From positions 47,233 to 87,658 of the forward strand of contig PGYL01000014.1 in the NCBI GenBank assembly GCA_002839645.1: a stretch of 40,426 bases of DNA, in the 5' to 3' direction. Within the stretch, counting starts at the first letter, position 1; each line of letters opens with the position of its first letter. Position numbers and translations under genes: made by a program. This document shows, piece after piece, positions 4,437-16,222 of the stretch. The DNA is from Methanomicrobiales archaeon HGW-Methanomicrobiales-2. GTDB taxonomy: Archaea; Halobacteriota; Methanomicrobia; Methanomicrobiales; Methanoculleaceae. The notes below the pieces were generated by a model. That model saw nothing but the letters and a program-made list of their open reading frames with translations, had not been told where the DNA came from and made no database searches.

Positions 4437-5688
4437 ATGGAGTTCACCTATGGAATCGACGACCGGCCCGGCCCGGCATACCTTCTCATCTTCGGCCTGC
4501 AGTGGCTGGCGGTGAGTGTCCCCATCATCCTCATCATCGGCGGCGTGATGGCCGCCCTCCAGGGAGAGGGGGCAGCCGTCCCCTACCTGCAGAAACTCTT
4601 CCTCCTCGTTGCCCTGGCCCTCCTCGTGCAGGTGTACCTCGGCCACCGGCTTCCCCTGGTTCTCGGCCCGGCGACGGTGCTCCTGGTCGGCATCCTCGCA
4701 AGCATTGATGCGGGTGCCGGCGCGATCAACGCATCGCTGCTCGCCGGGGGGCTCCTCCTTGCCGGAATCGCAGCAACCGGCCTTATCGGGCACCTCAAAC
4801 GCCTCTTCACGCCACGGGTGATCGCGGTCGTCCTCATGCTCATCGCGTTCACCCTCGCCCCCACCATCCTCGCTCTGGCCACAGACGGAGGAGGCACGGT
4901 TCCTCCGACGCAGGCCTTCCTCTTCTCGATCACGTTTGCGCTCGTCCTTTTCATCGCCGGCGGGCACCTCCCGGGGATATGGGAGTCGACCCTGGCGCTC
5001 TGGGCGATCCTCCTCGGCACCCCGGCCTACATCGCCCTCTTCGGGGCAGTTCCCCTGCCTCCGGCGGATACCCCCCTGCTCGCGCTGCCCGGAGACCTGA
5101 TCGCACCGCTTGCCGTGCCTGGCGCCGGAGTCCTCGGGGCGTTCCTGATCTGCTACCTCGCGCTCGCCGTAAACGACCTCGGCTCCATCCAGTCGGTGGG
5201 CGGTCTTCTCCGGGCCGACAGGATGGAGGAGCGGGTGAACCGCGGGGTGACCGTCACCGGCCTTGCGAACGCTCTTGCAGGCATCCGCCGCCACAGGGTG
5301 CGCGCCCCGCCTCACCCTGGTCCCGGCGGCGGTTGCACTCGGCCTCGTAGCCGCATCGCCCCTTGCCATGGGATATCTGGAGAGCATCCCGGCACCGGTC
5401 ATCGGCGTCGTCCTCACCTACGTCATGGCCTCCCAGATCGCGGCAGGGCTCATGCTGGGACAGGAGAGCAGGGCATTCGGGAGATTCGAAGACGGCCTGA
5501 TCGTCGGCATCCCCCTCCTTCTCGGGACCCTGGTGGGCTTCCTGCCCCCGGAAGTTACCATGGGCTTCCCGGCAACGATCCGCCCCCTGATCGCGAACGG
5601 TTTCGTCGTGGGCATCGTTACGGTCCTCGTGCTCGAGCACATCGTCTACCGTCGGGCGCGAGAGCAGGACTGCCCTTCAGAACCCTGA
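4437..5688 (+). pseudogene. NCS2 (uracil/xanthine) permease, broken by internal deletion and frameshift
   Basis: The first 840 bases encode a normal NCS2 nucleobase transporter: many hydrophobic helices, LPLVLGPATVLLVGI, and the central ALAVNDLGSIQSVGGLL and GVTVTGLANALAG. After about 5281 the frame becomes an unrelated arginine- and proline-rich peptide. The true continuation, TGCAPRLTLVPAAVALG and the last helices ending at 5688, is in the next frame. The family's conserved glycine-proline-serine segment (G..GPV..S...GVI) expected between NALAG and TGC is missing, so about 45-50 bases have gone rather than one base slipped. GGAG lies 10-13 bases before the ATG. Either a decayed gene or an assembly error. 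Confidence 0.85.
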
Positions 5689-5773: not shown

Positions 5774-5846
5774 TGGGCCCGGTGCGATTCGAACGCACGA
5801 CCTCCCGGTTATCAGCCGGGTGCACCACCAGCTATGCTACGGGCCC
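5774..5846 (-). tRNA. tRNA-Ile (GAU), copy 1
   Basis: Full cloverleaf of 73 bases on the minus strand: acceptor GGGCCCG paired with CGGGCCC plus discriminator A, D-stem GCA/TGC, anticodon stem CCCGG/CCGGG around the loop CTGATAA (anticodon GAT), T-stem GTGCG/CGCAC with loop TTCGAAT. CCA is not encoded, as is usual in archaea. It differs from copy 2 at one D-loop base. A TATA box lies 22-27 bases upstream and a T-rich stretch follows the 3' end. Confidence 0.97.
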
Positions 5847-5867
5847 GGATACACTCGTATTAGTGCC

Positions 5868-5873
5868 TATAAA
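5868..5873 (-). promoter_or_regulatory. TATA box for tRNA-Ile copy 1
   Basis: Minus strand TTTATA, 22-27 bases before the tRNA 5' end. No equally good box is seen at the matching place before copy 2. Confidence 0.5.
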
Positions 5874-5969
5874 TGTTGTACAATCTTCAATTTAAAGGTT
5901 GTGCAAGGACCCTCGCTCCAGAATTGTCACAAAATGATATCAATAAAGAACAGGCCGAACAGAACCGGG

Positions 5970-6050
5970 ATGAGATCCCCGGGTGCGTATCTCCTCAGAA
6001 ATGAAGCCGTCGCGCATGACCGCATCGAGGCGAGCATCGACTTCGCGACT
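5970..6050 (+). pseudogene. Decayed copy of the iorA 5' end
   Basis: Read from the ATG at 5970, the residues YLLRNEAVAH and IEASIDFAT match the start of iorA (YLLGNEGIAH, LEANIDFAS): 13 of 23 aligned residues are identical, while the DNA is about 65 percent identical with most changes in third codon positions. After DFAT the similarity stops and the frame closes at 6140. The remnant sits 123 bases past tRNA-Ile copy 1, much as the real iorA ATG sits 108 bases past copy 2. This points to duplication of a tRNA-Ile/iorA-5' unit, or capture of a paralogue's first codons. The third-position pattern suggests it was once translated. Not expected to be functional now. Confidence 0.6.
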
Positions 6051-6184
6051 GTCGTCGCCTTGCTTTGTCAGTTTCAGTGCGCATGGCGGTCTCCCCACGA
6101 TGGACGCCGCCCTTGCAGGTGCGACCCTGAACTCCGGTGATGCCGAAACGCGGGGCTCACCGGAGAAAGGCTATACAAGGGATA

Positions 6185-6257
6185 TGGGCCCGGTGCGATT
6201 CGAACGCACGACCTCCCGGTTATCAGCCGGGTGCACCACCGGCTATGCTACGGGCCC
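6185..6257 (-). tRNA. tRNA-Ile (GAU), copy 2
   Basis: The same 73-base cloverleaf as copy 1, with anticodon GAT in CTGATAA, no encoded CCA and one different D-loop base (AGCCGG here, AGCTGG in copy 1). The two genes point the same way with 338 bases between them. The region upstream of this copy has only a weak AT-rich element about 36 bases away, and no T-run follows its 3' end, so joint transcription with copy 1 is possible. Confidence 0.97.
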
Positions 6258-6365
6258 CGGTGGGTTTACCCTGCAACATCTGGCATCTTAGCACTTAATT
6301 GTTATGTAGCGGCATCCAAAGCGCTATGTTAAAAACCGACAATAGAAGTACAGTTGAGTGGAACA

Positions 6366-8135
6366 ATGGCAATACGATACCTACTCGGGAACGAGGGCAT
6401 TGCGCACGCTTGCCTTGAGGCAAACATCGATTTTGCCAGCGGATACCCCGGAACGCCATCCTCTGAAGTGATTGACGTCCTCCGGGTGCAGGAGGAGCGC
6501 CCCTTCACCGTGGAGTGGTCCACGAACGAGAAGGTCGCCTTCGAGAACGCGCTTGCCGCCGCCTGGTGCGGCCTGCGCGCACTCTGCACCATGAAGCACG
6601 TCGGGCTGAACGTGGCGGCCGATCCCCTGATGACGAGCGCATACACCGGGGTGACCGGCGGGTTCGTCGTCCTTTCTGCAGACGACCCCTTTGCACACAG
6701 CTCGCAGAACGAGCAGGACACCCGGCGTTACGCACACTTTGCCCGGCTCCCATGCCTGGACCCGGCATCGGTCCAGGAGGCGCACGATATGCTGCGGGAC
6801 GCCTTCGCCCTCTCCGAGGAGTTCAGTCTCCCGGTGATCTTCCGGCCCACCACCCGGATCTGCCACTCAAAGGGGGACGTCGACCTCGGAGAGGTCGGCA
6901 ACGAACACCGGACCGCCGCCTTCCACCGCGACCCGAAGCAGTATGTGGTCATCCCCGCGCACACCCGGGTGCTGCATAAAATCCTGAACCAAAAACAGTC
7001 GGCGTTAAAAGAACGGCTGGTCGAACTCGGCTACAACCGGCATACCATCCGGGGCAGCACCGCCGTCGTTGCAAGCGGTGCCGCCGCCGCCTACGTCCAG
7101 GAGGTGCTCGGGGGCGACGTCTCGCTCGCGATCATCGGCGCCTACCCGATCGACGAGGAGTGGCTCAGAGCCTTCGTCGACCGGCATGAGAGAGTCCTCG
7201 TCCTCGAAGAGCTCGCCCCGGTCGTCGAGGAGGCGGTACTCCAGGTGGCGACGAAGACGGAGGTCCTCGGTAAGATGACCGGCACGGTCCCGTACGAAGG
7301 GGAGTTCACCCCGGCAACCGTCGCCGCCGCCCTCGATAAGGCGGGCATCGCCTCCACGGTGGTCTTCCCGGCGGCTGCCCCGATCCAGGGAGTGCCGCCC
7401 CGCCCGCCGATCCTCTGCGCCGGGTGCATGCACCGGCCGACGTTCTACGCGATCCGGAAGGTCTTCCGCGACGGCATCTTCCCAAGCGACATCGGGTGCT
7501 ACACCCTCGGCCTCCAGCTCGGGGCGGTGGACACCACCATCTGCATGGGTGCCTCGATCACCGTCGGGAGCGGCATCTCCCGGTCGGGGGAGGAGCGCCC
7601 GGTGGTCGCTACCATCGGCGACTCGACGTTCCTGCACACGGGGATGCCGGGGCTCTTAAACGCCGTGTATAACGGCGCCGATATGGTCGTCGTCATCCTG
7701 GACAACCGGATCACCGCCATGACCGGTCACCAGCCAAATCCCAACACCGGCCTGACAGCCACGGGCGAGGAGAGCACCCCGATATCACTCGAGGCGATCT
7801 GCCGGTCTTGCGGGGTCTCCTGGGTCGAGACGGTCGACCCTTACGACCTCCCGGTGCTCCTCGACACCTTCCGCCAGGCAAAGGAGCGCAAAGGTGTCCG
7901 TGTAATCATCTCAAAGCAGCCCTGCGTCATCACCGCACGGCGGAGCGGCATCCGCCGCAAGGCCTACACGGTCGACCCGGAGCGGTGCATGGGCTGCGGC
8001 GCCTGCCGGTCATTCGGCTGCCCAGCGATTGCATTTATCGGGAAGAATGCTACAATCACCGAACTCTGCGCCGGGTGCGGCGTCTGCGCGGACATATGCC
8101 CGTCAGGTGCGATCGGTATGGAGGGACGGCGATGA
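6366..8135 (+). CDS. iorA: Indolepyruvate:ferredoxin oxidoreductase, alpha subunit
   Basis: Catalytic subunit of the thiamine diphosphate enzyme that oxidatively decarboxylates aryl pyruvates to aryl-acyl-CoA, reducing ferredoxin; in methanogens it can also run backwards for aromatic amino acid synthesis. The protein is 589 residues. The pyrimidine-binding domain is N-terminal (FASGYPGTPSSE), and the TPP-binding segment GDSTFLHTGMPGLLNA starts at 418. Two ferredoxin-type clusters end the protein: C541, C544, C547, C552 (an unusual CX2CX2CX4C form known in this family) and C568, C571, C574, C578. A TTG at 6354 would add four residues; I prefer the ATG at 6366. The stop overlaps the iorB start by four bases, so the two subunits are coupled. 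Confidence 0.96.
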   Translation: MAIRYLLGNEGIAHACLEANIDFASGYPGTPSSEVIDVLRVQEERPFTVEWSTNEKVAFENALAAAWCGLRALCTMKHVGLNVAADPLMTSAYTGVTGGFVVLSADDPFAHSSQNEQDTRRYAHFARLPCLDPASVQEAHDMLRDAFALSEEFSLPVIFRPTTRICHSKGDVDLGEVGNEHRTAAFHRDPKQYVVIPAHTRVLHKILNQKQSALKERLVELGYNRHTIRGSTAVVASGAAAAYVQEVLGGDVSLAIIGAYPIDEEWLRAFVDRHERVLVLEELAPVVEEAVLQVATKTEVLGKMTGTVPYEGEFTPATVAAALDKAGIASTVVFPAAAPIQGVPPRPPILCAGCMHRPTFYAIRKVFRDGIFPSDIGCYTLGLQLGAVDTTICMGASITVGSGISRSGEERPVVATIGDSTFLHTGMPGLLNAVYNGADMVVVILDNRITAMTGHQPNPNTGLTATGEESTPISLEAICRSCGVSWVETVDPYDLPVLLDTFRQAKERKGVRVIISKQPCVITARRSGIRRKAYTVDPERCMGCGACRSFGCPAIAFIGKNATITELCAGCGVCADICPSGAIGMEGRR

Positions 8136-12912: not shown

Positions 12913-15363
12913 TTACAACCCAAAATCAAAGAGCGTCGTCCTCGAGGGGTCGACGTCGTGCCAGTCCCACCCGAGCGGTTCGATGATCCTTGAGAGAGGA
13001 CCCTTGAGTGTCTTTTCAAGCATTGTCTCCCAGTCGACGACGAACTCGGGCGGCACCTGGTCGGCATACTCGAAGCAGACCACGTCCGTTCTCGGGTACT
13101 TCGCCGTGACGGTCTTGATGTAGACGCGCTTGGGTTTGCTGCCCCGCTTGAAGTCGGTCCCGAGATGCTCGTTCGAGTACTTGGCGCCCCGGATATGGGC
13201 GTCGTCGTTCTCGTAACTATCCAGGTTCTTCCCGATACCGCCGGGAATACCGGCCTCGTCGAGGGGATACTCCCCGCGGCGGTACTTCCTGATGACGTCG
13301 CGCAGGTACGCCTGCACGTCAGTGAACGCGTCCCCGCGGAGGATCATCTCGATGACGGCGCGCTGCACTTCCCGCGTGATCTGCGGTGAATCGCTCCGCC
13401 GGATCTCGAACCCGACGACATCGATCTCGTCGACGTCCTTGCCTTCCTTCCAGACCAGGTGCCCGGCGTAGCGCTTCTTCTTACCGGCCTGGAAGAAGCG
13501 CTGGTAGACCTTCTCGAACTTGATGGAGAAGTAGTGCGTATCGGCGTTCAGTTCGGCCTTCGCGAAGTCACTGTAACTCGCGTTTAACCGGGCCTCGATC
13601 GCCCTCGCCCGTGCGATGGTCTCCTCAAGAGTCCCCGGCGGGACCTCGACCATGCAGGAGTCGGTGTCGCCGTAGAGGACCGTGTACCCAAGACCGGTGA
13701 TGATGTCACGGGTATGCCTGATGATCGCCCGGCCGACCGAGGTGACGGCCGACCCGATCTCGCGGTCGTAGAGCCTGAACCGGGTGTAGCCCGAGACCCC
13801 GTAGTAGGAGTTCATGATCACCTTCAGGACGTTCTGCTGGAGATCGTAGAGGACGTATTCCGCCGACCCAAAGGGGTACTGGTTGCGCAGGCGTTTGCGC
13901 TCGTCTCGCTCCCCGAGGAGTTCGGCGAGGATGCTCCTTGTTAACCCGTCCGGCTCCCGGGAGAATCGGACGCCGTTTGGCGCCCGCAGTTCGCCGTCCG
14001 GGTTCTTCGTCTCGGGGGAGGCGTTGATCGTCATCATCGCCATCGGGTAGAGCGACTTTAAGTCGAGGACCACCACGTTCTCCCTGAGGCCCGTCGCAGG
14101 CTCAAAGACGGTCGCCCCCTCGAACTCGTCCCCGGCGGCGAGTCCCTTGGAGGGGAGGACGAACGTGCCCGAGGCCTTCCGCAGGACGTAGATGTCGATG
14201 ACGTTTGAAGAGTTCAGCGTCCGGTCGAGCGGGCACCCAACATACCGGGAGATCTCCCGGTAAAAGTCGATGATGTTGTCTTTTCTGTCGATCCCGACAC
14301 AGAGTTCGACGTCACGGCAGTTGTATTCCACGAGCCGTGCCGGGTCGGATTGCCAGAGCGCCGTGATCGTCCCGGTGTAGCGGACCTTCGTGATCCCGAG
14401 TTCATCTCCGGCGACCGCATCGAGCCGGTAAGACTCCTTCTGGGCCAGGTGTATCTTCCGGTAGGCGGAAAGAAGGTCGAAGACCGCCCTCCCCCGGACG
14501 GCGTTCCGCTCGGTCTGCCCGGGGAGACGCGCGAGGTCCTCAGGCCTGATGCCGAGCGTCGCCATCCGTTTCAGGACGTAGGGGATATCGAACTCCACGA
14601 AGTTCCAGCCCGAGAGGATGTCAGGGTCGCGCTCCCTGACGTAGGTGATAAGTCCGCGGAGCATCGCCACCTCATCCGGGTACCGGACGACCCGGTGCTG
14701 CTCGTGGATACGAAGTCCGGGATCATCGACGGGCGCATCGCCCGGCACCCCGCCGGGCCGCCAGAGGAGGGTTGTATAGTCCCCGTCAAACGAGTCCCAG
14801 CAGGTTACGCAGATGACCGGGTCCCGCTCGGGCTCGGGGAACCCCTGCTCGTCCACGCACTCGATATCCATGATACAGGTCCGGGCAGGAGCCTTGATAT
14901 CGACCGGTACGAGTTCGCGGTAGTCGATCACGGAGACGCCGGCGGGGAGTTCCACCCCTGCGGAGAGACCGCAGTCGATCATGAACCGGGTGGCAAACGG
15001 GATATCGGCCTCATAGTGCTGCGAAAATAGGTCGCGGACGTTCCGGACGTCGCTCGGGCGCCGGGTATAGAGGCGCCGGAGCGGCTCGCCGCGGATGGAG
15101 CGGTAGGTTGTCCCGGCCTCCAGGTCGACCTCCTGCGGGAGGGATCGCCCCTCCACCAGACCGGCGGGCACGTAGAAGTAGGGCCGAAAACCGGTCACGT
15201 CGATCTTGACCGCCCTCCCGGAGGTGTCCCGGCCGAAGATGTGGATGACCGGGATCTCACCGCCGACGCTGTACTCCACCTGGTGAATGCCGACCCGGAC
15301 CTTCCCGAAGTCGTCTAAGGTGGCCGCGGTGCTCATATGGGACTCCAGCACCTGATCAGTCAT
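12913..15363 (-). CDS. polB: DNA polymerase, family B
   Basis: Replicative or repair family B polymerase with 3'-5' proofreading, 816 residues. Exonuclease motifs are intact: DIE at 166-168, NFVEFD (Exo II) and YNCRDVE (Exo III). Polymerase motifs are intact too: motif A DLKSLYP at 434-440, motif B KVIMNSYYG, motif C YGDTDS at 564-569. The start at 15363 is preceded by AGGAG five bases upstream and overlaps the end of mdh by eight bases, so the two genes are cotranscribed. The open frame runs 66 codons further into mdh but that part is a shadow. A second ATG nine codons in, beginning MSTAATLDDF, is an alternative. Confidence 0.96.
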   Translation of the reverse strand: MTDQVLESHMSTAATLDDFGKVRVGIHQVEYSVGGEIPVIHIFGRDTSGRAVKIDVTGFRPYFYVPAGLVEGRSLPQEVDLEAGTTYRSIRGEPLRRLYTRRPSDVRNVRDLFSQHYEADIPFATRFMIDCGLSAGVELPAGVSVIDYRELVPVDIKAPARTCIMDIECVDEQGFPEPERDPVICVTCWDSFDGDYTTLLWRPGGVPGDAPVDDPGLRIHEQHRVVRYPDEVAMLRGLITYVRERDPDILSGWNFVEFDIPYVLKRMATLGIRPEDLARLPGQTERNAVRGRAVFDLLSAYRKIHLAQKESYRLDAVAGDELGITKVRYTGTITALWQSDPARLVEYNCRDVELCVGIDRKDNIIDFYREISRYVGCPLDRTLNSSNVIDIYVLRKASGTFVLPSKGLAAGDEFEGATVFEPATGLRENVVVLDLKSLYPMAMMTINASPETKNPDGELRAPNGVRFSREPDGLTRSILAELLGERDERKRLRNQYPFGSAEYVLYDLQQNVLKVIMNSYYGVSGYTRFRLYDREIGSAVTSVGRAIIRHTRDIITGLGYTVLYGDTDSCMVEVPPGTLEETIARARAIEARLNASYSDFAKAELNADTHYFSIKFEKVYQRFFQAGKKKRYAGHLVWKEGKDVDEIDVVGFEIRRSDSPQITREVQRAVIEMILRGDAFTDVQAYLRDVIRKYRRGEYPLDEAGIPGGIGKNLDSYENDDAHIRGAKYSNEHLGTDFKRGSKPKRVYIKTVTAKYPRTDVVCFEYADQVPPEFVVDWETMLEKTLKGPLSRIIEPLGWDWHDVDPSRTTLFDFGL

Positions 15364-16222
15364 CGAATCTCCTGCAGAGGCCCTGCACGAACGCTCCCGC
15401 CTCTGCCATCTTCGCAGCTTCCCAGGTATCGAGGTCCCACTCCTCGATGCCGAGGATACCCTCGCGGCCGATCCGGGCAGGAACGCCGAGCGAGCAGCCG
15501 GAGAGACCGTATTCGCCGTCAAGCACGCACGAGCAGGAGAGCACCTCCCGCCGGTCCTCAAGGACCGCGCGGATCAGCATGGCGATGTGGTATGCAGGGC
15601 CAAAGACCGTGCCGCCCTTGCCGCGGATCACCTCCATGCTCGCGCCCTGCATCCGGGAGAGGATCGCTTCCCGCTCATCGAGGCCGAGATTGGCACCGGC
15701 CTTCGAGAAAAGCGGCACCTGGTGCTCGCCGTGCTCGCCAAGCACCCAGGCGGGCCCAAAGACCCCCGCCTCACCGAGGAAGCGGGCAAAGCGAGTGCTG
15801 TCGAGCTGGCCGCCAAAGCCGATGCACTGCCGCCGGTCGATGCCCATCATCTTCCAGAGGCCGTAGTTGTTCGCGTCCATGGGGTTCGTGACGGTGATGG
15901 CGACCCCGGAGAACCCCTGCAGGTGCTCGCTGCAGCGCTTCGCCACCGGGATATTGGCCTCGAGGAGATCGGCGCGGGTCTTGATATCGGGCGTCCTCGG
16001 GGTGCCTGCCGCAAAAACGAAGACATCGGCTTCCCGCATCGCTGCCACATCGGTGGAGACCGTGACGTCGATACCCGTGTGCTGCAGGTCGAGCACCTGT
16101 GCCCGGAGGATGGGCTCGTATGCGTCATGGAGGATGATCTCATCGACGAGGCCAAGCGCAGCGGAGAGAAACGCCGTCTCGCCCCCCACCTTTCCTACAC
16201 CTAAGATTGCGAGCGAGGTCAT
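15356..16222 (-). CDS. mdh: Malate dehydrogenase (LDH/MDH family)
   Basis: NAD(P)-dependent interconversion of malate and oxaloacetate, 288 residues. The Rossmann motif is GVGKVG at 8-13. An aspartate (D33) ends the second strand, as in NAD-preferring members. Substrate-binding arginines are R76, R83 and R144 (in AAGTPRTPDIKTR and DSTRF). The catalytic histidine is H164 in LGEHGEHQVP. Archaeal MDHs of this branch resemble lactate dehydrogenases, and the active-site arginine in GTPR supports a dicarboxylic substrate; lactate activity cannot be excluded from sequence. It is first in a leftward pair with polB, an odd metabolic partner. Confidence 0.9.
   Translation of the reverse strand: MTSLAILGVGKVGGETAFLSAALGLVDEIILHDAYEPILRAQVLDLQHTGIDVTVSTDVAAMREADVFVFAAGTPRTPDIKTRADLLEANIPVAKRCSEHLQGFSGVAITVTNPMDANNYGLWKMMGIDRRQCIGFGGQLDSTRFARFLGEAGVFGPAWVLGEHGEHQVPLFSKAGANLGLDEREAILSRMQGASMEVIRGKGGTVFGPAYHIAMLIRAVLEDRREVLSCSCVLDGEYGLSGCSLGVPARIGREGILGIEEWDLDTWEAAKMAEAGAFVQGLCRRFDD

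Follow-up and report, generated by a model that had tools for sequence, protein, structure and literature searches.

Probable origin in another archaeal family of the promoter region and decaying iorA start between two tRNA-Ile genes of Methanoculleus

In the genome of Methanomicrobiales archaeon HGW-Methanomicrobiales-2, two nearly identical genes for tRNA-Ile(GAU) precede the gene iorA and enclose between them a stretch reading like the beginning of iorA, which raises the question of where this additional unit has come from. The window, i.e. the whole stretch of 40,426 nucleotides analysed here, carries on the reverse strand the distal gene (5774–5846; tRNA_D) and the proximal one (6185–6257; tRNA_P), both recognized by ARAGORN and differing, as the preliminary description had stated and the alignment bears out, by a single base of the D-loop. 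The latter occupies the place usual in the order, the common layout there being a single tRNA-Ile located ~100–150 nt away from iorA; in the window, the native divergent promoter of tRNA_P and iorA (6258–6365) separates them by 108 nt. The iorA gene itself (6366–8135, forward strand, with its ATG at 6366), coding for the alpha subunit of indolepyruvate ferredoxin oxidoreductase, is complete, exhibits the Pfam domains TPP_enzyme_C, POR_N and Fer4, and is present in its own genome in one copy; an iorA-like gene on contig C59 of the same genome, considered as a second iorA, was rejected, its N-terminus being unrelated. To the left of tRNA_D, a frameshift near 5270 divides a xanthine/uracil permease gene (4437–5688) in two; it is due to either pseudogenization or an assembly error, and ten relatives have the frame intact.

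The iorA-like stretch is real and not a product of chance. The frame P0001 at 5988–6050 on the forward strand reads YLLRNEAVAHDRIEASIDFAT, the compared iorA being YLLGNEGIAHACLEANIDFAS, and in a search of 826 kb, translated in six frames, with a hidden Markov model of 61 iorA N-termini, it was the best match outside iorA (23.8 bits, E=3.5e-5); the homologous stretches of three relatives reached ~22 bits and the next non-iorA match after these relics 10.9 bits. On the DNA level, nhmmer gave a value of 9e-9, and the tree sets the relics apart from the native iorA. The similarity covers codons 5–25, but not the entire first 25 codons claimed previously, and the start codon has been lost, the ATG of the donor (see below) being aligned to CCG at 5979–5981. 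The differences from iorA affect 13 of the 21 third positions versus 8 of the 42 other positions; the third-position bias noticed earlier is thus present and goes back to divergence from another iorA lineage. Since this donor difference explains the bias, the idea of deducing from it the coding phase of the relic was dropped. Decayed to a varying degree, the relic is recognizable in the window genome (G000) as well as in G003, G004, G006, G007, G010, G012, G025 and G026/G031. In the window, G025 and G026 it forms an uninterrupted frame, which would suit a functional small ORF or a leader peptide; such a role is, however, scarcely credible in view of the lost start codon, the indels and deletions in G006, G007, G010, G012 and G013, and the low conservation.

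Concerning the origin of the unit, the decisive part is the divergent promoter region between tRNA_D and the relic (5849–5978, reverse strand), which combines a conserved promoter of tRNA_D, with a AACCTTTAAAT box upstream of the tRNA, and the remains of a donor iorA promoter and leader, as delimited by alignment and by the conservation of its parts. When the distal block (5849–6048) was aligned to G085, a member of the genus g14 from the family f4—presumably Methanofollis—157 of 207 positions were found identical, end to end through the tRNA promoter, the iorA leader and codons 5–24, with an alignment score of 105 against a maximum of ~20 for shuffled sequences. The matched locus is the native tRNA-Ile/iorA locus of g14. 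Among 232 genomes of the order, searched with the distal block of G026 as a query, the distal promoter was found outside Methanoculleus only at this g14 locus, the matches in G101 and G123 being confined to iorA codons. The noncoding parts of the distal blocks are 70–79% identical to G085, in comparison with 64% between the subgroups of g14. The native promoter of the window can be aligned well to other genera of the family (G080 and G082), but not to the distal block, and to g14 from the iorA start region only; the vertically inherited promoters of Methanoculleus and g14 are unalignable. The noncoding DNA of the distal block is thus closer to that of a distant taxon than to its vertical homologue, as is characteristic of horizontal transfer. 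Because the promoter is restricted to Methanoculleus and g14 within these 232 genomes, while their vertical promoters cannot be aligned, the block is, judging from the sequence comparison, very probably xenologous and derived from another archaeal family. The transfer would have proceeded from g14 to Methanoculleus, since the gene is complete in the former and a truncated relic in the latter.

Further traces common to the relic and g14 are the codon 13 ATC, the codons GAC TTC GCG and the alanine of codon 7. In the tree based on the promoter together with the codons—the 63 codon columns alone being too short for placing the donor—the distal blocks are joined to the G085/G088 side of g14 with the support of 95/94; the AU test did not reject g14 without the distal blocks as a clade (p=0.63). 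The blocks of G002, G016, G028 and G034 are set apart from the others, so the number of acquisitions may be one or two.

The preliminary description had preferred a duplication of the tRNA-Ile together with the iorA start, and the unit is indeed present twice with its iorA start as a relic. A local tandem duplication of the tRNA-Ile and the 5' end of iorA, followed by decay, would also account for the nearly identical tRNAs, their similar spacing and the iorA similarity, but it is very improbable, the distal and proximal promoters being unrelated (at the chance level in 34 of 36 comparisons, with the exceptions of G010 and G007 against the promoter of G001) and the distal one matching another family. 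A local duplication would have left the flanks of the two copies homologous, and closer to each other than to those of other species, which they are not. Moreover, the relic already differed from the native iorA by ~32% when the genus began to radiate, although the native iorA hardly varies within it. The other proposal, a diverged iorA inserted and later deleted down to its start, came closest, but nothing shows that a full gene arrived. A relative with another intact iorA, suggested as a check, was looked for among Methanoculleus and g14, and none was found. It could also be assumed that the ancestor of both families contained two tRNA-Ile/iorA units, of which g14 kept one complete and Methanoculleus the other along with the relic. 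Such an ancient paralogy would be compatible with the AU test, the distal blocks being allowed as a sister to g14; it is nevertheless unlikely, because neither the other genera of the own family nor the other families retain a trace of it, and the distal block is 70–79% identical to g14 despite the unalignable vertical promoters. In addition, iorA is single-copy across the order, save for eight genomes of other families with 2–3 matches of a lower best score, taken as split genes.

The donor homology is followed by a spacer of 134 nt (6051–6184), in which no integrase or other element genes are present between the tRNA copies. It includes a 41-nt piece (6093–6133) that is 85–90% like the PGF-pre-PGF/PKD surface-protein genes of g14 and G024. 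The end of the spacer to the left of tRNA_P, AAGGGATA in the window, is common to G010 (AAAGGATA), which has retained the distal tRNA only, and the loss of tRNA_P therefore came after the insertion.

The distribution was surveyed in 35 genomes of the genus, in which four states were distinguished, the remaining genomes being incomplete at the locus. Both tRNAs are present in six genomes (the window genome, G002, G016, G018, G028 and G034), the distal one only in 13 (G003–G008, G010, G012, G013, G025, G026, G031 and G032) and the proximal one only in eight (G001, G015, G017, G019, G022, G023, G027 and G029), whereas in G011 and G030 the tRNA is absent from iorA and located elsewhere. In all 13 distal-only genomes, tRNA_D is the single full-length match to tRNA-Ile(GAU), and a promoter of apparently foreign origin would thus precede the sole gene for this tRNA in about 13 relatives. 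The same genomes exhibit a short GGGCC trace beside the native promoter; as GGGCCC is present at either end of the tRNA gene, a deletion between the two repeats would explain it. An apparent deletion in G024 (L021) was rejected as a scaffold gap. It should be noted that many of the relatives are metagenome assemblies; the structures recur in many independent ones, including the Methanoculleus records L011–L016, L019 and L026. In the basal genomes G011 and G030 (L159 and L160), the tRNA-Ile and its native promoter are located at a distance from iorA; in G011 the permease gene still precedes it, which suggests that the locus was split by rearrangement. As to the explanations offered earlier for the near identity of the two tRNAs, a need for gene dosage is unlikely with a single copy in most relatives, and concerted evolution gained no support, the differences within and between the six two-copy genomes being alike (permutation p=0.6), albeit with low power, as the tRNA hardly varies.

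The individual parts of the distal block have not been conserved equally. The 48 columns facing the tRNA are 94% identical among the distal blocks (86% in the near members of g14), whereas the leader facing iorA reaches 62% (88%), the iorA start region 53% (82%) and the iorA codons 69% (87%). With 94% on the tRNA side and 53–69% on the iorA side, the tRNA promoter is therefore kept and the iorA start is decaying; the low identity of the codons relative to the functional homologue, the indels and the lost start agree with the relaxed constraint of a pseudogene fragment. Such a pattern would be expected of a block that has come to serve tRNA_D alone. A scan for sigma-70 promoters is uninformative for archaea.

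All in all, the best explanation, regarded as highly likely, is that a block from g14 or a neighbouring lineage was transferred and inserted at the tRNA-Ile. Before the greater part of Methanoculleus diversified, DNA containing the donor tRNA-Ile promoter, the divergent iorA leader and ~25 iorA codons would have entered the genome, and a crossover in the tRNA-Ile gene may have inserted it, giving the order tRNA_D, foreign promoter, foreign iorA start, spacer, tRNA_P, native promoter and iorA; a circle with a tRNA-Ile and its upstream flank, recombining with the chromosomal tRNA-Ile, would yield precisely this order. Because the body of tRNA_D is devoid of g14-type bases, the crossover presumably occurred close to the 5' end of this gene, unless the body was altered by a later conversion. 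Either copy would have become dispensable once two working tRNAs were present, so that several lineages may have deleted the native tRNA_P, others hold the native copy only and the window both, while the useless iorA start would decay and the promoter from which tRNA_D is presumably transcribed would stay.

The vehicle would most likely have been an integrative element targeting tRNA-Ile and carrying host flanking DNA. That this tRNA can receive mobile elements is documented in G031, where a 13.6-kb element resides in tRNA_D, the nearly identical G026 (L220) representing the empty site; a displaced 48-nt 3' piece of the tRNA is found at L219:1686–1733 and the full tRNA at 15329–15401. The displaced piece and the empty site, as the marks of an attachment site, were found for this element and not for the g14-derived block. 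The cargo of the G031 element (L219:1686–15401) consists of PADLOC homologues of HmaA, HmaB and HmaC (helicase, methylase and ATPase) and an Mrr-type nuclease, and no integrase was recognized in it; its tRNA is a hybrid of a 3' part from the element and a 5' part of Methanoculleus, with the g14-type promoter. Truncated copies of tRNA-Ile were observed to the left of the tRNA, a short and almost uniform distance beyond its 3' end, in G001, G003, G004, G006, G007, G012, G013, G015, G032, L024, L159 and L160, the conserved U33 being lost where inspected (G013 and G015); they are probably old scars of an attachment site and are also visible in the g14 flanks of G084, G087, G090 and G094.

Since the same tRNA holds the G031 element, a mobile vehicle is plausible for the g14 block, too. 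The integration scar considered in the preliminary description came near to this. No integrase linked to the distal block was found, nor any carrier of it in the phage and viral collections and contigs, and the transfer from g14 may therefore have taken place by plain homologous recombination between incoming DNA, linear or circular, and the conserved tRNA; the recipient-type body of tRNA_D would suit this as well. That course is the somewhat less probable one, given the proven insertion of the G031 element into this tRNA and the old truncated copies adjoining it. A wider proposal is made tentatively, with slightly more doubt than trust: elements targeting tRNAs may carry host flanks across archaeal families in a manner resembling specialised transduction, and an essential tRNA gene present in one copy may in this way have received the promoter of another family in about a dozen species, with a gene-start fossil naming the donor.

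When a transfer replaces the promoter of an essential tRNA gene, the event is difficult to recognize, the tRNA itself being nearly invariant; in the present case, the dead iorA start serves as a label giving the donor, the direction and the extent. The locus suggests that a tRNA insertion site can import adjoining regulatory DNA between families, and it provides a natural experiment: of the two halves of a divergent promoter, one is maintained and the other decays within the same species. In specialised transduction of the lambda type, imprecise excision carries along the host DNA adjoining the attachment site, and a similar event would bring the flank of the tRNA with the iorA start to the matching site of a new host; no virus or element was found here, however, the likeness being an analogy only. 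Archaeal integrases favour tRNA genes, the class using the 5' half leaving the tRNA under a promoter supplied by the element (PMC8371274). The present locus resembles the integration by tyrosine integrases at archaeal tRNAs in that the tRNA is the insertion site and a complete tRNA stays on the chromosome, but the promoter supplied is the native tRNA promoter of another family along with the start of a neighbouring gene, both ends are complete tRNAs, and neither element genes nor an integrase are left (PMC8371274). The truncated copies of tRNA-Ile by the locus and the displaced 48-nt piece in G031 are similar to the tRNA fragments left by integration (PMC9897764), whereas the two tRNA-Ile genes of the window are complete. 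Finally, the adjacent position and the same orientation of these two genes are those of a tandem tRNA gene duplication, from which the locus is distinguished by upstream flanks differing in their family origin.
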